From IMG/VR virus record IMGVR_UViG_3300005471_000199, positions 1 to 28,915 of that record: a DNA stretch of 28,915 nt, one strand, 5' to 3'. Shown here piece after piece: positions 16,892 through 24,349 of the stretch (position 1 is the first letter of the stretch; each line of letters starts with the position of its first letter). The stretch comes from a virus. Position numbers and translations under genes: made by a program. A model generated the notes under the pieces. It saw only the letters and a list, made by a program, of their open reading frames with translations. It made no database searches and was not told where the DNA came from.

Positions 16892-18493
16892 CTACCGGCG
16901 GCCGCGGCCGCCGGCGGCGACCATCGGAAATACCGGAGTCGGCTTGGTCGCGGTCGACTCGGGCCGGCGACGCTTGATGCGGTCAGCTGACCAGCCACCT
17001 GTGCCGGCCTGAGGCATGAGACGGCTGACGTCGCCCCGCGGCATACGCGCTTTTCGTTTCTCCTTGTCGTCGTAAAGGCCGAACAACTCGGTCAGCGCCC
17101 ACACGAGCGCATCCATGCGGTTCGGGCTCTCGCGGGCCTCATCTGGCACCCATCCTGTCTGCTCACGCTCGAGTTCCGGAAAGAAGCCGACATGGTGGAC
17201 GATGTGGCGGTCGTAGAGCATCGAAACCGGCTCGGCGCGCACCGCCTTGCCGCGGCTGGCCCGAACGACCTTGACCGCAATGTTGCGGTGGCCCGCGCCA
17301 TGGATCGTGTTCTCGACCATGTCGCCGCCGAAGTTGACCTCGGCGATCACCTTGTCCGCGTGCCGGGCCGAATAAGTCCCGTCGAGTCTCGGCACCCAAA
17401 TGTCCGGACCGCCCTTGGCCGACACGTCGTCGAGGACGTAGGCGTGACCGTCGTTGCCTTTGGCCACGGTGAGGATGCCGTTCTCGGTGCGGCCGCCGGC
17501 GGGGTCAACGCCGCAGACGACACGGACCAGGCGCAACCCCTCGTCGAGGCGCTTCTCAAAAGCCCCGACGGTAATCCGATCGATGTCGATCGCCGATTGC
17601 TTCCAGAGCGAGCCCTCGAGCTCCTCGAGGATGTCGCCGTAGACCTCCTGCCGGCCGAGACGCGAGTGCTCGACGTCGGCGATGGTCTCCTGGAACTCTT
17701 CGGCCAGGTTGGTGAAGTTGTCGTGCGAGGAGCGAACGGTCAGAGCTGCTCGCGGATGTGCCGATAGCCACTTGATGACCTTGTGGTTCTTCGGCGTCGT
17801 CGTGATGATCAGCTTCACGCCGCCGTGCTTGTGCTTGACACGCATCGTGTAGCGGATCTGGTCCCACGCCTCGTCGAGTCGCTTCCACGCCGCAAGCTCA
17901 TCGAGCCATGCGCGCACGAACTGCACGCCGCGGAAGCGATCCGGATCATCAGCTGACCGCAGCTCGACGATCACGTCGTTGGGAAACGTGAGGCGCAACT
18001 TCGACGGCTCGTAGTCGGGCATGAAGTCCGGCGGCGCTACCTTCAGGACCGAGGAGGGCCCGACCTCGACCATCGTGTCTCGGACGTCTTGCGCCGTAGG
18101 ACCGCCCATGAGCAAGGGACCGATCCCGGCGCGCGCCCACTCGATGATCGCCTGGGCTCCCGTCTCGGTCTTGCCGAAGCCGCGGCCGCAGCGAAGCAGC
18201 CAGTAGACCCACGAGTCATCCGTGACCGGATCCCCGCTTTCGCCAGACGGCAGCTTGGAATCGACAGTTGCGGCCCAACGAGCTCCGGTTGCTGCTGGGG
18301 TGCCGGGCAGGAGCTGCTCGGGCCGCGCCTTTCCGTCCTGAAACGCCGGCGCGCGGGCGAGACGATCGCGTGCCTGCGTCTCGACGAGGGCTGCCTCATA
18401 ACCACGTGGCCACGGGACTTCCCCGCGCCACGCCGGCCGGTCGTTCTCTTCATCGGCGAACAATTCCGCCGTGCGAGCAAAGACGCCCGTCAC
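16892..18493 (-). CDS. terL: Terminase large subunit (packaging ATPase-nuclease)
   Basis: The 533-residue product has the packaging ATPase core. Walker A is RCGRGFGKTETGA (about 101-113, K108), Walker B is FVRAWLDELAAW (D198, E199), and the coupling motif is LIITTTPKNH. The RNase H-like nuclease follows with VCGVDPAGG (D330) and a late acidic residue in SPNRMDALVWALTELF. It translocates and cuts concatemeric DNA at the portal. The length is normal for phage large terminases. The GTG start overlaps the small-subunit stop (GTGA). The basic C-terminal tail (DRIKRRRPES) may contact the portal or DNA. Confidence 0.95.
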   Translation of the reverse strand: MTGVFARTAELFADEENDRPAWRGEVPWPRGYEAALVETQARDRLARAPAFQDGKARPEQLLPGTPAATGARWAATVDSKLPSGESGDPVTDDSWVYWLLRCGRGFGKTETGAQAIIEWARAGIGPLLMGGPTAQDVRDTMVEVGPSSVLKVAPPDFMPDYEPSKLRLTFPNDVIVELRSADDPDRFRGVQFVRAWLDELAAWKRLDEAWDQIRYTMRVKHKHGGVKLIITTTPKNHKVIKWLSAHPRAALTVRSSHDNFTNLAEEFQETIADVEHSRLGRQEVYGDILEELEGSLWKQSAIDIDRITVGAFEKRLDEGLRLVRVVCGVDPAGGRTENGILTVAKGNDGHAYVLDDVSAKGGPDIWVPRLDGTYSARHADKVIAEVNFGGDMVENTIHGAGHRNIAVKVVRASRGKAVRAEPVSMLYDRHIVHHVGFFPELEREQTGWVPDEARESPNRMDALVWALTELFGLYDDKEKRKARMPRGDVSRLMPQAGTGGWSADRIKRRRPESTATKPTPVFPMVAAGGRGRR

Positions 18494-19125
18494 GTAGTCG
18501 GCTCGATCAGCGCCAGCTGCTCGCGAAACAGCTCGCGGACCTGGAATGTCTGCTGCTGCGTCAGGCTGAGGACGATGGTGAGCTTCGCGACGAAGCGCCG
18601 GCCGACCTCGGCGAGCATCTGGGCCTGTTCCTCGAGGACCTGCACCTTGCGCTCCTCGATGCCGGCATCCTTCGCCATCTTCGCGAAGTGAGCGGCCCGT
18701 TTCTGGGCCTCGTTGTATTGCTCGATGAACACATGCGCCTGGGTCGCACCTTGAGCACCGGTCACCACCAAGCCGTTGCCATGCAGATCGACACCACCGC
18801 GCTTCAAATCGGCCACAAGGTGGCTCCAGAAGGCAACATCACCGTAGGAGATCCAGAGCATGTGCAGGAGCGCCTGTGTGGGGTCCACCTCGACTGCAAT
18901 GCCCAGCTGCTTGCCGGCGTCCGCAAGCGCCACGCGCTGCAGCGCCTTTGCTCTGACCTGGGGTGAGGTCCCGCCATGGGTGTCACAGACGGTCCCGCCG
19001 TGCATCCGGAACTTCGTGCAGGGCCCGCCGTTGGAGCGATGGGCAACGCAGCTTGGAACCATCCTGCCACCGCGTGTCATCCGTTCGTGAACGCGACCGC
19101 ATTTAGCGCACGGCTGTCGCTCCAT
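18490..19125 (-). CDS. terS: Terminase small subunit (probable)
   Basis: The 211-residue product starts with zinc clusters (QPCAKCGRVHER) followed by CVAHRSNGGPCTKF and TVCDTHGGTSPQVRAKALQR. The latter motif often opens small terminase subunits of actinophages. The rest is helical, ending in a long helical stretch (IEERKVQVLEEQAQMLAEV) suited to oligomer formation. The small subunit recognises phage DNA and regulates the motor. Assignment rests on the motif, length and place directly before terL (GTGA overlap). The start is uncertain: ATG 19125, GTG 19128 and TTG 19131 are adjacent, and no strong ribosome site is seen. Confidence 0.72.
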   Translation of the reverse strand: MERQPCAKCGRVHERMTRGGRMVPSCVAHRSNGGPCTKFRMHGGTVCDTHGGTSPQVRAKALQRVALADAGKQLGIAVEVDPTQALLHMLWISYGDVAFWSHLVADLKRGGVDLHGNGLVVTGAQGATQAHVFIEQYNEAQKRAAHFAKMAKDAGIEERKVQVLEEQAQMLAEVGRRFVAKLTIVLSLTQQQTFQVRELFREQLALIEPTT

Positions 19126-19138
19126 CACCAACCGCCGC

Positions 19139-19552
19139 TCAGGCGTCGAGACTGTCAGCGCCGGCCGCAAAAATCAGTTCGCGAGGTCCGGCGCCGCCGC
19201 GAAGAGCAGCTCGCATGAGCATTTCCCCTCGCTCGCCAGCGGGCCGCGGGGCTGTTCGTCGTTTTCCGGCAGTCGGTCGCGGAAAGCGGTCGGCCCAGAC
19301 GTGGCGCATCACCAGCATCAGCCAGGCCTGCACCCTTCGCTTGCTCCGTGAACGCGGCGGGCGCTCCACCATCCGGAGGTAGGCCTCCTGGACGAGATCT
19401 TCGGCGGCGTCCTGGTTGCGGGTCAGATGGATGGCTGCGGACAACAGGACCGGACGAACGGCGGCCGCCGTGTCAGCGAGTGCCTTTTGCAAATATCCCT
19501 CTATTAATAGAGACGGGCGCTCATGGGTGGGGCAAAACGTGATAGTTGGCAT
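19139..19552 (-). CDS. Sigma-70 region 2-like protein lacking region 4
   Basis: The 137-residue product contains, at about residues 36-92, SAAIHLTRNQDAAEDLVQEA then YLRM and AWLMLVMRHVWADRF, the region 2 pattern of ECF sigma factors. Here the DAAEDLVQEAYLR helix contacts core RNA polymerase and the AW...R...D..R part lies near the -10 contact. After it comes only a basic, low-complexity tail of ~45 residues, too short and unlike region 4. ECF sigmas are normally 160-200 residues with both regions. The ATG lies one base after the stop of the region 4-like gene. It is placed directly before the terminase genes. Confidence 0.72.
   Translation of the reverse strand: MPTITFCPTHERPSLLIEGYLQKALADTAAAVRPVLLSAAIHLTRNQDAAEDLVQEAYLRMVERPPRSRSKRRVQAWLMLVMRHVWADRFPRPTAGKRRTAPRPAGERGEMLMRAALRGGAGPRELIFAAGADSLDA
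19499..19512. promoter_or_regulatory. 14-bp perfect AT-rich palindrome CTCTATTAATAGAG
   Basis: The palindrome lies inside the sigma region 2-like gene about 40 bases after its start. It is written in codons (CTA, TTA, ATA) that are rare elsewhere in this GC-rich window, so a DNA-level function such as an operator or promoter element is plausible. No protein binding is shown. Confidence 0.4.
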
Positions 19553-19553
19553 A

Positions 19554-20153
19554 TCAGGCTGTCCGGCCATGGGTTTTGAGGCCCTTGAGGAGCATTTCTC
19601 TCGCCTCCGTACAGATCTCACAGTGAGCTTCCGCGGCCAGCGGAGCCATCAGCCGCAGAGACCGATCCAGCTTCCACGCACCGTTGAGAATCAGTTGCCG
19701 AACCGCGGGCTCGAGGCGCTCGAGTAGATCCGCTATCGGCCCCAGCTCGAACCCGGCGTGGTGGAGTGCTAGAGCATTCGCCTCCGCCGGCTTCAGGCCT
19801 GCCCAGTCGTACACAGCGTCGACGCCGTCTTTCGGCTTCTTTACCAGCAGGCTTCTCAGCACCGGAAACGCGCTCAGGTCGGCGCCGTAGCGTTCGTGCC
19901 ATTCCACGACCGGCGCCGGCGGGCGCAAGGCTCCGGATTTGTCGGGCCGGCCAGCGCAGGTCGTGTGATGAATCCGGGCGCACAGCCTTCCGTTGACGAC
20001 GTCGTCCTCGTCGCCTACACCGCAGTCGCATGGGTCTCCGTCCGGCAACATGTCGGCGTTGCCATCGGCCATCACCGCCTCGACCATCAGCTCGGCGAGG
20101 CGTGTCTCCGCTGACTCGAGCGTCGGGAAGGATTGCTCATAGGATTTCGTCAC
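19554..20153 (-). CDS. Zinc-binding protein with sigma region 4-like HTH
   Basis: The 199-residue product has a Cys/His cluster at about residues 42-66 (CDCG...CARIHHTTC). At 119-167 it has a segment matching sigma-70 region 4: LKPAEANALALHHAGFELGP-IADLL, then AVRQLI and KLDRSLR. The L-x2-x-E...G-x4-IA-x-LL...VR...L spacing is that of region 4.2, which contacts the -35 element. A further CEIC lies near the end. No region 2 is present in this protein; a region 2-like protein is encoded immediately downstream (1-base gap). The GTG start overlaps the upstream stop (GTGA). A generic HTH remains possible. Confidence 0.65.
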   Translation of the reverse strand: MTKSYEQSFPTLESAETRLAELMVEAVMADGNADMLPDGDPCDCGVGDEDDVVNGRLCARIHHTTCAGRPDKSGALRPPAPVVEWHERYGADLSAFPVLRSLLVKKPKDGVDAVYDWAGLKPAEANALALHHAGFELGPIADLLERLEPAVRQLILNGAWKLDRSLRLMAPLAAEAHCEICTEAREMLLKGLKTHGRTA

Positions 20154-20593
20154 AGGGCGCGGTGAAAGTCCGAGAGCTCGCCGTGGGATCCCTGCTCATC
20201 GTCGACGCGCGGGATTCGGAGTAGCGCATGCTCCGGTTCTCCCATTGCGCGCTGGATCTCGCGGGTGACGACCACATTGCAGACGTCGCACAACAGGGTG
20301 GGCGTTTCGTGACCGCAGAGCTGGCAGTAACCCATCGGATCCTGGATGAGCTGCGCCATGCACCCACCGCAGGTCGTGTGATTCGCCGAGCAGGCCTCAT
20401 TGCATAGCTGACAGTGGCGATGACTCAGCGCGCCCCAATCGATGTCGCAGGACCGCCCCGCCGGCCAGCCGTCCGGACGAAAGCACCCGGCTGCGACTGC
20501 CCGGACCTGGCGCATATGGTGACCGCGCAGAAACCTGTCGTTCGCCGGACGGCCGCACCCACACTTGCAGAAATGTGGGTCGACGTCAGCCAA
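20150..20593 (-). CDS. Multi-zinc-finger protein, 147 aa
   Basis: A TTG start is inferred, with GAGGGGG 9 bases upstream and an 8-base overlap with the resolvase gene. The product carries several Cys/His clusters: FCKCGCGRPANDRFLRGHHM, CQLCNEACSANHTTCGGC and CQLCGHETPTLLCDVC. That is enough ligands for about three zinc sites. The first cluster resembles a knuckle seen in phage HNH-associated proteins, but no nuclease core follows. The TGA overlaps the next GTG (GTGA). It sits just before two sigma-like genes, so a role in transcription is conceivable but unproved. Confidence 0.75.
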   Translation of the reverse strand: MADVDPHFCKCGCGRPANDRFLRGHHMRQVRAVAAGCFRPDGWPAGRSCDIDWGALSHRHCQLCNEACSANHTTCGGCMAQLIQDPMGYCQLCGHETPTLLCDVCNVVVTREIQRAMGEPEHALLRIPRVDDEQGSHGELSDFHRAL

Positions 20594-21125
20594 CGTGCTG
20601 AGCCCCCTCGAGCAGTGGCATGCTCGCCGGCGACTTCCGCTTGCGGACCTTCGGCTCCGGCTTGTCGAGGCCGAGTTCCTGCCGGCGCTGGCACATGGCT
20701 ACGGCCCAGGCATCGAGTGTGTCCTGGGATGCGTACTCAACGCCGTAGCGCTTGTAGAGCTCGACGGCAGCGTTCTTCTTGCTCAGCGCACCGTTGCCGC
20801 AGAGAATTTTCTTCCACGTACCCGGCGCGATGACGTGCAGGGGGATCCGTGCCTGGTGGATGGCGAGCTTCATCACTCCGCCCAGCTCGCCGATGCTGAA
20901 TGCGCGCGTGTGCCCTTGCGGTGAGCCGTAGGAATAGCCTTCGATTGCGACCTGGTCGAGGCGGTTCTCGATGACGGTTCGCCGGATCCAGGTGTTGAAC
21001 ATCTGCAGGCGCTCCGTCTCGCGCAGGGTGTGGCTACCGACCACGCCATGCCACACAACGTGGTCCTCGTCGAGCAGCACATAGCCCGTCGACGTCAGCG
21101 AGAGGTCCAGTCCGAGGATTCTCAT
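20586..21125 (-). CDS. RuvC-like Holliday-junction resolvase
   Basis: The 179-residue product has the RNase H-like resolvase core: ILGLDLSLTSTGYVLL (D7), VAIEGYSYGS (E62), and a final DTLDAWAVA (D135, D138), giving the four acidic metal-binding residues. Between them, IAPGTWKKILCGNGALSK matches the conserved loop of phage RuvC proteins. The enzyme cuts four-way or branched DNA; in phages it clears replication and recombination intermediates before packaging, which fits its place just ahead of the terminase genes. GGAG lies 5 bases before the ATG. A Lys/Arg-rich tail (KVRKRKS) may bind DNA. Confidence 0.88.
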   Translation of the reverse strand: MRILGLDLSLTSTGYVLLDEDHVVWHGVVGSHTLRETERLQMFNTWIRRTVIENRLDQVAIEGYSYGSPQGHTRAFSIGELGGVMKLAIHQARIPLHVIAPGTWKKILCGNGALSKKNAAVELYKRYGVEYASQDTLDAWAVAMCQRRQELGLDKPEPKVRKRKSPASMPLLEGAQHVG

Positions 21126-22342: not shown

Positions 22343-23080
22343 TTAGGTCGGCGGCGGGGTCGGAATGTAGCCGGGTCGGGTCGTGGTCAGGGCTTCCGTG
22401 ACGACGTCGGTTTTCAAACGAAAGTGTTTCACCGGCTGAGCTCGAGCCACGACCCGAGAGATCGTCGTCCAGCCCCACATGCCGCCCGCCGGCGCCGCGA
22501 TGTTCTCGCTGTTGAGCTTCTCGGCAATCGCCTCGTAGGACTTTCCGCTGCGTCTCATGCGCAGGATCCGCTTCTCGAGGTCTGGCGTGATCAAGCGAGC
22601 TCGGCCGAGTCGTGTGCCGCGCGCCTTGGCCACCGCCAGTGCCTCTCTCGTCCGCTGGCCGATCATTTCCCGCTCGAACTGAGCAACGTTGGCCAGGACG
22701 CCGGCAATCAACTTGCCAGTTGGAGTCGACGTGTCCATGTCGAGCTCGAGCATCACCACGTGCCAGCGCTGCTTGCTCGCTGTCTCGAGCAGCGTCGCGA
22801 AGTCGATCGTGCTGCGAGAGATCCGGTCTAGCTTGGTCGCGACCAGGGCATCGGCTCGATGGGCTTTCAGGTCGGACAGTGCCGCCTGCAGCTCGTGCCG
22901 GCCGTTCATGGTCTTCCCGGAGGCAACGTCCTTCGCGATTCGGACTAGCTCCCAGCCCTTCGATCGAGCCTTGAGGGTGATCGCCTCGACCTGAGCTTCG
23001 AGGCCCAGACCTGAGCGGCCCTGGTCGCTGGTCGAGACCCGAACGTAGCCAATGACGCGTCGAACTTCGTCCCTCGTCAT
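22343..23080 (-). CDS. Small serine recombinase (resolvase/invertase family)
   Basis: The 245-residue product begins with the resolvase catalytic core: VIGYVRVSTSDQ with the nucleophile at S16, ALVATKLDRISRS with the paired active-site arginines, and an E-helix around GVLANVAQFEREMIGQRTRE. A C-terminal helix-turn-helix follows (RRSGKSYEAIAEKLNSENIA). The size fits resolvases and invertases (about 180-250 residues), not the 450-600-residue large serine integrases. It could resolve multimers, invert a segment, or act as a minimal integrase. The ATG at 23080 is preferred over an upstream ATG because it starts just before the catalytic strand. Confidence 0.88.
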   Translation of the reverse strand: MTRDEVRRVIGYVRVSTSDQGRSGLGLEAQVEAITLKARSKGWELVRIAKDVASGKTMNGRHELQAALSDLKAHRADALVATKLDRISRSTIDFATLLETASKQRWHVVMLELDMDTSTPTGKLIAGVLANVAQFEREMIGQRTREALAVAKARGTRLGRARLITPDLEKRILRMRRSGKSYEAIAEKLNSENIAAPAGGMWGWTTISRVVARAQPVKHFRLKTDVVTEALTTTRPGYIPTPPPT

Positions 23081-23086
23081 GCTGCC

Positions 23087-23092
23087 AGAGTA
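23087..23092 (-). promoter_or_regulatory. Candidate -10 element (TACTCT) for a leaderless recombinase mRNA
   Basis: On the minus strand TACTCT (the TANNNT form) ends 6 bases before the ATG at 23080, so transcription would begin at or next to the start codon. The recombinase gene has no Shine-Dalgarno sequence, which fits a leaderless message of the actinobacterial kind. No good -35 is seen at 17-18 bases. Confidence 0.35.
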
Positions 23093-23116
23093 ACACATGA
23101 CGAAGGACAAGTGTTA
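23091..23116. promoter_or_regulatory. Dyad operator candidate (TAACAC-N14-GTGTTA)
   Basis: Two perfectly inverted 6-bp arms at 23091-23096 and 23111-23116 are separated by 14 bases. The near arm overlaps the candidate -10 element of the recombinase gene and the far arm sits where a -35 would be. A dimeric repressor or the recombinase itself could bind here. Arms this short can occur by chance. Confidence 0.35.
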
Positions 23117-23263: not shown

Positions 23264-24349
23264 TCATGGCTTGTGACTCTGGATGTCGGGAAGAGACTCG
23301 CCGAGCTTGGAAAGGCCGGAGGTCCGAACGTGGGGGCGTTGCTGCTGCTTCAGGCCTTCGTTCTCGAGCTGCTGCAGTCGTGTCCAGAAGTACTCCAGCG
23401 ATGAGGGCCTGTCGTCAGGGTCGGACTCGTCCCACCAGGCGTTGAGGTGGTTGAGCAGCTGTGGACCCTCGATGGCGAAGCCTGCGATCTGTTCAGCGAT
23501 GGCGTGTTCGTGAGCAAGGGTGTCGGGCTTAACCGACATCCAGCCGTGCTTACCGAAGAACCAGTTGGTCAGCTGCAGGCGACGCTTGGTCGCGGGAAGC
23601 CGAGCCCAATCAGACCACTGGATAGGCCCGCCGTTGCCGGCATGCGTGGTGGGTGTGTCGGTGGGGACAGGCTGCTCAGGCGGCGGGTCTGAGGGACCTA
23701 CATCGTGTACGTCTCCACGTGAATGTCTTCCACTCCTTCCACTCTGTCCACTCTGTCCACTCTTTCCACTCATCCACTGGCGCGCGCGCGGGAGGGGTTC
23801 CGCTGGGGCTCCAGTTTGGCTCCGCTCGTTCTCCATTTCGTCTCCGCTGCCGGAGACATGGCGGAACCGAAATGGTTCCGGCCGTCCTCCAGAAATCCAC
23901 TCATTTGAGATCGGAGGGCCCGAAAAACCGGGCTTCTTTTTATCCTCTTGCCACTGCTCGTACAGCCGCTTGGGCAGGTGGATGCTCGGCTCCCAGCCGG
24001 GATGCGCCGGGAGGGTACTCCAGCGAATTCGGTCAACTTTTTGTGGCTGATACTTGTGCCAGTTACGAATTTGGAGGTAGGTTTTCTCGTCGAATCGGTA
24101 GAGAAGGATGAAGTGGGCGGCCTCGTCCAGGTGCTCAAAAGCCTTCCTGCAGCGGACCAGCGAGACCTCCTCGAGGTGCTGGAATACCTGGTGCCAGATC
24201 CACTTCACCGACGCGGTCAGGCGGCCCTGATCGTCGGCAAGCAACCACATGCTGATGGCCAGGTCACGCGCCACCAGGCCACCGGCGTTGATCTCCTCGT
24301 CGTCGAGGATGCCGCGGTTGCTGTACCGGTTCTTATAGGTTGCGGTCAT
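23264..24349 (-). CDS. Phage replication initiator (winged-helix, DnaD/O-like)
   Basis: The first ~120 residues show the winged-helix pattern of phage replication organisers: LAISMWLLADDQGRL, then a helix leading to FILLYRFDEKTYLQIRNWHK and YQPQKVDR. A low-complexity Ser-Gly-Pro linker (about residues 165-240, with SGKSGQSGQSGRSGR) joins it to a C-terminal helical domain containing WFFGKHGWMS and LNAWWDESD. Such proteins bind the origin and recruit a helicase loader or helicase. The linker DNA holds 9-bp repeats listed separately, as in lambda O. The start overlaps the upstream stop (ATGA). Last gene before the main intergenic gap. Confidence 0.8.
   Translation of the reverse strand: MTATYKNRYSNRGILDDEEINAGGLVARDLAISMWLLADDQGRLTASVKWIWHQVFQHLEEVSLVRCRKAFEHLDEAAHFILLYRFDEKTYLQIRNWHKYQPQKVDRIRWSTLPAHPGWEPSIHLPKRLYEQWQEDKKKPGFSGPPISNEWISGGRPEPFRFRHVSGSGDEMENERSQTGAPAEPLPRARQWMSGKSGQSGQSGRSGRHSRGDVHDVGPSDPPPEQPVPTDTPTTHAGNGGPIQWSDWARLPATKRRLQLTNWFFGKHGWMSVKPDTLAHEHAIAEQIAGFAIEGPQLLNHLNAWWDESDPDDRPSSLEYFWTRLQQLENEGLKQQQRPHVRTSGLSKLGESLPDIQSHKP
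23729..23902. repeat. Iteron-like 9-bp direct repeats inside the replication gene (candidate origin)
   Basis: On the plus strand the heptamer TCCACTC occurs at 23729, 23738, 23747, 23756 and 23765, an exact 9-bp period. A degenerate TCCACTG lies at 23773 and one more exact copy at 23896. The array encodes the Ser-Gly-x linker using AGT and GGA codons, unlike the GC-ending codons around it. An A/T-rich stretch lies at about 23923-23945. Phage initiator genes that contain their own origin (lambda O) have this layout. Binding is not shown. Confidence 0.55.

Follow-up and report, generated by a model that had tools for sequence, protein, structure and literature searches.

The window analysed here is a stretch of 28,915 nucleotides, positions 1 to 28,915 of the IMG/VR virus record IMGVR_UViG_3300005471_000199. 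The genes of the cassette and its neighbours are all located on the minus strand, in the order RuvC, P0004, P0002, P0001, small-terminase-like gene and large terminase, with the portal and head genes further on (Table 1). P0001 and P0002, together with their counterparts in related loci, are called R2 and R4 in the following. Start codons of the cassette genes were assigned by eye. With the starts chosen the chain is tight, with overlaps of 8 and 4 bases, the latter between P0004 and R4, followed by gaps of 1 and 10 bases, where the last gap separates the end of the R2 ORF from the GTG of the small-terminase-like ORF. The small-terminase-like protein is related to Pas58 of phage phiAsp2 (E 4e-6), which is annotated as a probable small terminase. 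In this phage, P0004 could be part of the cassette. The loci compared in two further IMG/VR contigs, 7.5-13.6 kb long, are identical in DNA sequence to the window, which makes an assembly error unlikely. When 26 ORFs of the window were scanned against PHROGs, P0001 was the only one with a match to a family of the transcription regulation category. Outside the cassette, a serine recombinase/DNA invertase-like gene was observed at 22343-23110 (phrog_125, 1.5e-47); the phage could be temperate or capable of DNA inversion. A protein at 23264-24349 resembles phage replication initiation proteins (phrog_1408, 1.8e-8).

Table 1. Genes of the cassette and its neighbours, with positions in the window.
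Feature	Positions	Strand	Evidence
R2 (P0001), stand-alone sigma region 2 protein, 137 aa	19139..19552	-	Pfam Sigma70_r2, E 7.2e-11
R4 (P0002), 199 aa, predicted C-terminal sigma-4-like HTH (residues about 104-173), Cys/His cluster	19554..20153	-	relatives and AlphaFold
P0004, cysteine-rich small protein, 147 aa, between RuvC and R4	20150..20593	-	sub-threshold zinc-ribbon matches only
RuvC-like resolvase, conserved upstream neighbour, search anchor	20586..21125	-	Pfam RuvC, 1e-8; phrog_159, 8.1e-27
Small-terminase-like gene, directly downstream of R2	18490..19128	-	phrog_3678, 1.4e-19 (PHROGs: function unknown)
Large terminase	16892..18493	-	Pfam Terminase_6N, 9.4e-14

Relatives of the locus were found through the RuvC neighbour, which gave 14 loci: the two identical contigs, five close relatives (L057-L061) and seven distant loci. 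RuvC of the close relatives was 64-79% identical to that of the window over the alignment. In all five, as in the window, RuvC is followed by an HTH protein and then by a short sigma-2-only protein. The pair, whose co-occurrence in other phages the first-pass annotation had named as a check, is present in six out of six related lineages when the window is counted, all of them IMG/VR contigs and several short (one has 62 kb, the others 8-36 kb). RuvC and the R4 frame overlap at the end of RuvC in L057, L058, L059 and L060, while approximately 0.8 kb in L061 and the cysteine-rich gene in the window lie between the two. Among L058, L060 and L061, the three closest lineages, codon position 3 differs most in both R4 and R2 (0.26, 0.17 and 0.47 by codon position for R4 of L058 and L061), the pattern to be expected for coding genes that are kept; the more distant pairs of lineages are saturated for the comparison. 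The small terminase near the cassette matches phrog_83 in L057, L058 and L061, as opposed to phrog_3678 in the window, and the best PHROG of the L059 large terminase also differs from the window's. Since different terminase families stand beside a conserved cassette, the cassette and the packaging genes appear to have undergone recombination. The terminase genes compared lie at 16892-19128 in the window, L059:6854-8437 and L057:7216-7680.

Beyond these lineages the searches returned little. Among the distant RuvC loci (L062-L068, 35-36% identity) the pair was found in none of the seven, of which L062 and L065 have at least 3 kb downstream and count as two informative negatives. In the stretches examined of the terminase-based relatives (L007, L008, L017-L020 and L022), no match to the R2 or R4 profiles was better than E 0.8. 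In viral contigs, P0001, P0002, a piece of P0002 and the small terminase as single-protein queries gave only the two identical contigs, and the RuvC alignment gave no additional lineage. An alignment of P0001 with ECF sigmas led to ten more loci in this collection, where the ORFs read were longer ECF-like chains. Phage genomes gave nine weak matches to P0001 (best E 0.1) and none to P0002; there, tblastn of L060 R4 found nothing, L057 R4 had two chance-level matches, both to sigma-W factor genes (E 4 and 8), and L060 R2 matched 11 records, the best at 6e-3. The plasmid search returned ECF sigmas for P0001 (best E 1e-5) and nothing beyond chance matches for P0002 (E 6 or worse). No relative of P0002 or of the RuvC alignment was found in genome contigs.

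Judged by its sequence, P0001 is a sigma region 2 with nothing else recognisable. The first-pass annotation had read the product as a region 2 without region 4, and this was confirmed, as were the coordinates and the quoted peptides of both ORFs: residues 31-90 match Pfam Sigma70_r2 with 42.2 bits (cut-off 24), and the Pfam search gave no match to region 4. Against the PDB, P0001 matched chain 2o7g_A (sigma-C) with E 1.6e-5, and the profile of the six R2 members matched ECF sigma structures, the best with E 8.8e-11. Leave-one-out profiles recovered each of the six members with 29-76 bits (E 5e-8 to 1.7e-22, values which refer to small databases, the window R2 ORF appearing twice in those lists), while the best of 1,000 shuffles per member reached at most 12.4 bits. 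Besides P0001, the 24-bit cut-off of the same model, PF04542, was reached by L059 (25.6) and L060 (32.5), and L058, L057 and L061 stayed below it with 23.3, 21.5 and 15.9 bits, respectively. In a Pfam search of the whole records, seven in number, the only Sigma70_r2 matches were the R2 genes of five records; L061 R2 did not appear in that search at E <= 1, and gave 0.011 with the protein itself as query. Five of the six R2 proteins matched phrog_1740, within positions 65-129. Unrelated families that R2 members matched with E above 0.05 were disregarded as chance. In sigma factors, the region 2.2 segment (acidic residue, L, L or V, Q) binds beta-prime. This core-binding segment, (D/E)L(V/L)Q, is present in five R2 proteins, the sixth, L057, having H in place of Q.

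With the chosen starts, the R2 proteins of the five relatives are 118, 74, 108, 74 and 74 aa long, and those of 74 aa are hardly more than the sigma-2 match itself. Alignment with L058, which starts with ATG, places the R2 start at CTG in L060 (5289) and at ATA in L061 (4937). These non-ATG starts possibly keep R2 scarce relative to R4. Each of the two was observed to be preceded by a purine-rich, ribosome-binding-like sequence.

R4 was less readily classified. P0002 has a cluster of Cys and His at residues 42-66, and alone it gave no Pfam, PHROG or NCBIfam match. Its HTH became visible only through the relatives, with a profile E of 3.7e-4 where the best shuffle gave 0.78, and through structure prediction with their alignment. 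P0002 is 28, 26 and 25% identical to R4 of L058, L060 and L061, respectively. The R4 proteins of L057 and L059 form a related pair (35% identical) and are not clearly homologous to P0002, with leave-one-out E of 20 and 0.01. The N-terminus of R4 contains a cysteine cluster in L058, L060 and L061, whereas the window has the separate P0004 gene. P0004 was considered as a detached N-terminal part of an L058-type R4, and this was rejected, as it was absent among the top leave-one-out matches listed.

The sigma signal was carried by R4 of L057 and L059, with all matches below the curated cut-offs; the curated region-4 cut-off was reached by none of the six R4 proteins. Residues 98-165 of L057 R4 matched the region-4 half of NCBIfam sigma70-ECF at E 0.0012, below cut-off, and the same protein matched phrog_1740 weakly (E 0.026) at positions 142-217. 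L059 R4 matched two sigma factor families, phrog_351 (7.6e-4) and phrog_3512 (0.0075). In the whole-record search of the seven records, PF04545 (Sigma70_r4) matched nothing at E <= 1 except these two R4 genes, and their per-record E of 9.6e-4 and 2.8e-4 were no stronger than the 0.001 and 0.0016 given by the region-4 model in unrelated genes of the window. For four of the six records with the cassette, that search gave nothing for region 4. At the protein level, the sub-threshold region-4 matches of L057 and L059 R4 were 0.02 and 0.054. In Pfam, HTH_50 (0.0039) and a LysR type (0.0072) came ahead of Sigma70_r4_2 (0.02) for L057 R4. Matches to PF08281 in unrelated genes of the window phage were in the range 0.001-0.003, the 0.0016 belonging to the recombinase gene, and P0002 had none.

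Comparisons of profiles gave two candidate classes for the HTH. Against the PDB, the six-member R4 profile placed LuxR/GerE-type proteins first (DesR 2.2e-5, GerE 4.2e-4), with sigma 4 at 0.11 (FliA). Split by group, the profiles gave nothing significant: metallo-beta-lactamase was best for L057 and L059 (0.072; FliA 0.61), and ribosomal L32 was best for the P0002 group (0.77; DesR 0.95). A phmmer search of the PDB with P0002 had regulating synaptic membrane exocytosis protein 2 as its best match (0.013), which was taken as chance. With hhalign, where all values are single comparisons, R4 aligned to a two-sequence LuxR alignment with probability 94.3 and to columns 106-174 of one alignment of ten two-domain sigmas with 90.1, and R2 aligned to columns 6-72 of the latter with 98.3. 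By these alignments the R2 and R4 families would correspond to the two halves of an ordinary two-domain sigma profile.

AlphaFold modelling of P0002 with the six-sequence alignment gave mean pLDDT of 66-86 in the blocks of residues 111-170 (moderate confidence) and of 41-47 in the blocks of residues 1-110. A model made without alignment had a mean pLDDT of 42 and was discarded, so the structural evidence comes from one usable model, that of P0002. Foldseek returned nothing at E <= 0.001 for it. When Foldseek's own top chains were re-examined with VIA-align, residues 104-173 matched SigR region 4 first, over 64 residues with rmsd 2.0 and Z 10.1; the tool warns that helical bundles can commonly give Z below about 13. 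A second sigma region 4 structure, CnrH, followed with Z 9.9, and sigma factors made up 45 of the 50 listed chains, as judged from titles and chains. The LuxR-type rows were EsrB with Z 8.7, i.e., 1.4 under the top, and DesR with 8.3. A LuxR/GerE HTH fits R4 about as well as sigma 4 does by sequence, and the fold comparison leans to sigma 4. The first-pass annotation had placed a region-4-like HTH in the gene one base before R2. Of this, the position, the gap and the predicted C-terminal HTH hold, and the sigma 4 class is favoured by the model, not proven.

We consider it likely that R4 and R2 together make up a split sigma factor encoded by the phage, each being one of its two subunits. The idea of a two-subunit sigma, raised in the first reading of the locus, has gained from the sigma match of R2, from the presence of the pair in all six lineages and from the weak sigma matches among the relatives of R4; for the class of the HTH, LuxR/GerE competes with sigma 4 in sequence. 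Sigma factors are almost always single chains. In sigma factors as described in PMC2988020, domain 2 is the main core-binding part, docking on the beta-prime coiled-coil and recognising the -10 element, and the beta flap is where domain 4 docks, the domain that recognises the -35 element. SigO-RsoA shows that two chains are able to share these tasks (PMC8103513). In the present pair, R2 would bind the host RNA polymerase at its beta-prime coiled-coil and melt the -10 region, while R4 would sit on the beta flap with its HTH reading a -35-like element. Translational coupling, suggested by the 1-base gap in the window and by overlaps at the same junction in three of the five relatives (chosen starts), may help the co-production of R4 and R2. 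We infer that the two proteins associate physically, bind RNA polymerase and recognise promoters, and that they do so late. The pair would switch on the late operon, perhaps its own operon too. It is the gene position that points to late-gene control as the most likely role: the pair lies between recombination and packaging genes, and the late regulators RinA and Ltr of Gram-positive phages likewise lie before the packaging genes (PMC13123087). The stretches around the cassette were read by eye for promoters, and none is claimed.

The same position, together with the closeness of the R4 HTH to LuxR/GerE, would also suit an R4 that acts alone as a late activator, its HTH being LuxR- or sigma-4-like, and that works with the host sigma. 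R2 would then be a separate protein which blocks transcription of the host by sitting in the sigma-2 site of RNA polymerase. We regard this as unlikely. R2 and R4 are adjacent in every one of the six lineages, and in four of them the genes overlap or lie 1 base apart; R4 lands on the sigma-4 part in both profile and fold comparisons. Among the five R4 proteins scanned against NCBIfam (window and L057-L060), that of L057 matched sigma families only and the other four had no match at E <= 1; whatever RinA/ArpU/Ltr models the library may contain, none was among the matches. In addition, a sigma-2 partner is not mentioned for RinA and Ltr in the part of PMC13123087 concerned with them, which sets them apart from R4.

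The layout of the proposed split sigma factor is closest to SigO-RsoA of B. subtilis, as compared by layout and description. SigO (YvrI) and RsoA (YvrHa) carry sigma 4 and sigma 2 on separate proteins and are encoded in the yvrI-yvrHa operon (PMC8103513), i.e., in the same gene order with sigma 4 first. A table in PMC10141391 gives the reverse domain assignment; it lists RsoA at 9.00 kDa, close to the size of the 74-aa R2 proteins. However, SigO-RsoA is bacterial, and its targets are oxdC-yvrL, yvrJ and its own operon.

Phages have related arrangements as well. The first-pass annotation knew of no described phage example, and in the broad sense this has to be corrected: T4 gp55, which is sigma-2-like, drives the late genes with gp33, its beta-flap partner, and the two are named a split sigma in PMC2988020, and SPO1 gp34, related to proteins called sigma factors, promotes late transcription along with gp33 (PMC3601020). 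The likeness to SPO1 is that of a sigma-related phage protein with a partner in late transcription. T4 shares with the present pair a sigma-2-like phage protein plus a partner, with the beta-flap placement seen for gp33 and proposed for R4. T4 also uses the sliding clamp gp45, and gp33 has no discernible sigma similarity and reads no DNA sequence in the account given there (PMC2988020), while R4 has a predicted sigma-4/LuxR-type HTH. This last difference bears on whether R2 could be a minimal sigma that reads only the -10 element, like gp55, with R4 as a coactivator contacting polymerase or DNA and no reading of -35. The T4 precedent and the 74-aa R2 proteins, with little beyond the sigma-2 match, agree with such an arrangement, and the HTH predicted in R4 makes us regard it as improbable. 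That R2 is a decayed ECF sigma gene without function, as an ORF lacking region 4 might suggest, is hardly credible, since one layout is kept in six divergent lineages, the codon-position pattern in the three closest is that of kept genes, and the small-terminase-like gene starts within 10 nt of R2, with no space for a region-4 remnant.

Split sigmas are known already, SigO-RsoA from Bacillus and gp55/gp33 from phage T4 (PMC2988020). Among the titles and abstract beginnings listed from the open-licence PMC literature, none described a phage pair with a sigma-4-like partner beside a sigma-2-only gene, and such a pair in the style of SigO-RsoA appears to be new. If the pair functions in the proposed way, the SigO-RsoA layout is in use by phages too, a clear sigma-2 half lying beside a sigma-4-like half, and the six natural variants could serve to study the coupling of -10 and -35 recognition between separate chains. 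For the window phage, the pair is a candidate late switch. The slot before R2 holds at least two groups of HTH proteins which are not clearly homologous, P0002/L058/L060/L061 on one side and L057/L059 on the other. One could speculate, with more doubt than confidence, that the split sigma is modular, where a minimal sigma-2 subunit (down to 74 aa) is kept and the HTH partner has been exchanged or has diverged beyond recognition. If true, the specificity for late promoters could be re-tuned without touching the DNA-melting half.

Single-chain ECF (group IV) sigmas, including RpoE of phage phiM9, are the families to whose two halves R2 and R4 align. The ECF-like phage ORFs which were read are single chains of at least 153 aa with protein beyond region 2, unlike R2, and most of them have a region-4-like end as judged by eye. 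One phage ORF, L054:2920-3498, has a sigma-2-like stretch and a C-terminal half hardly recognisable by eye as region 4, and it could be another unusual sigma.
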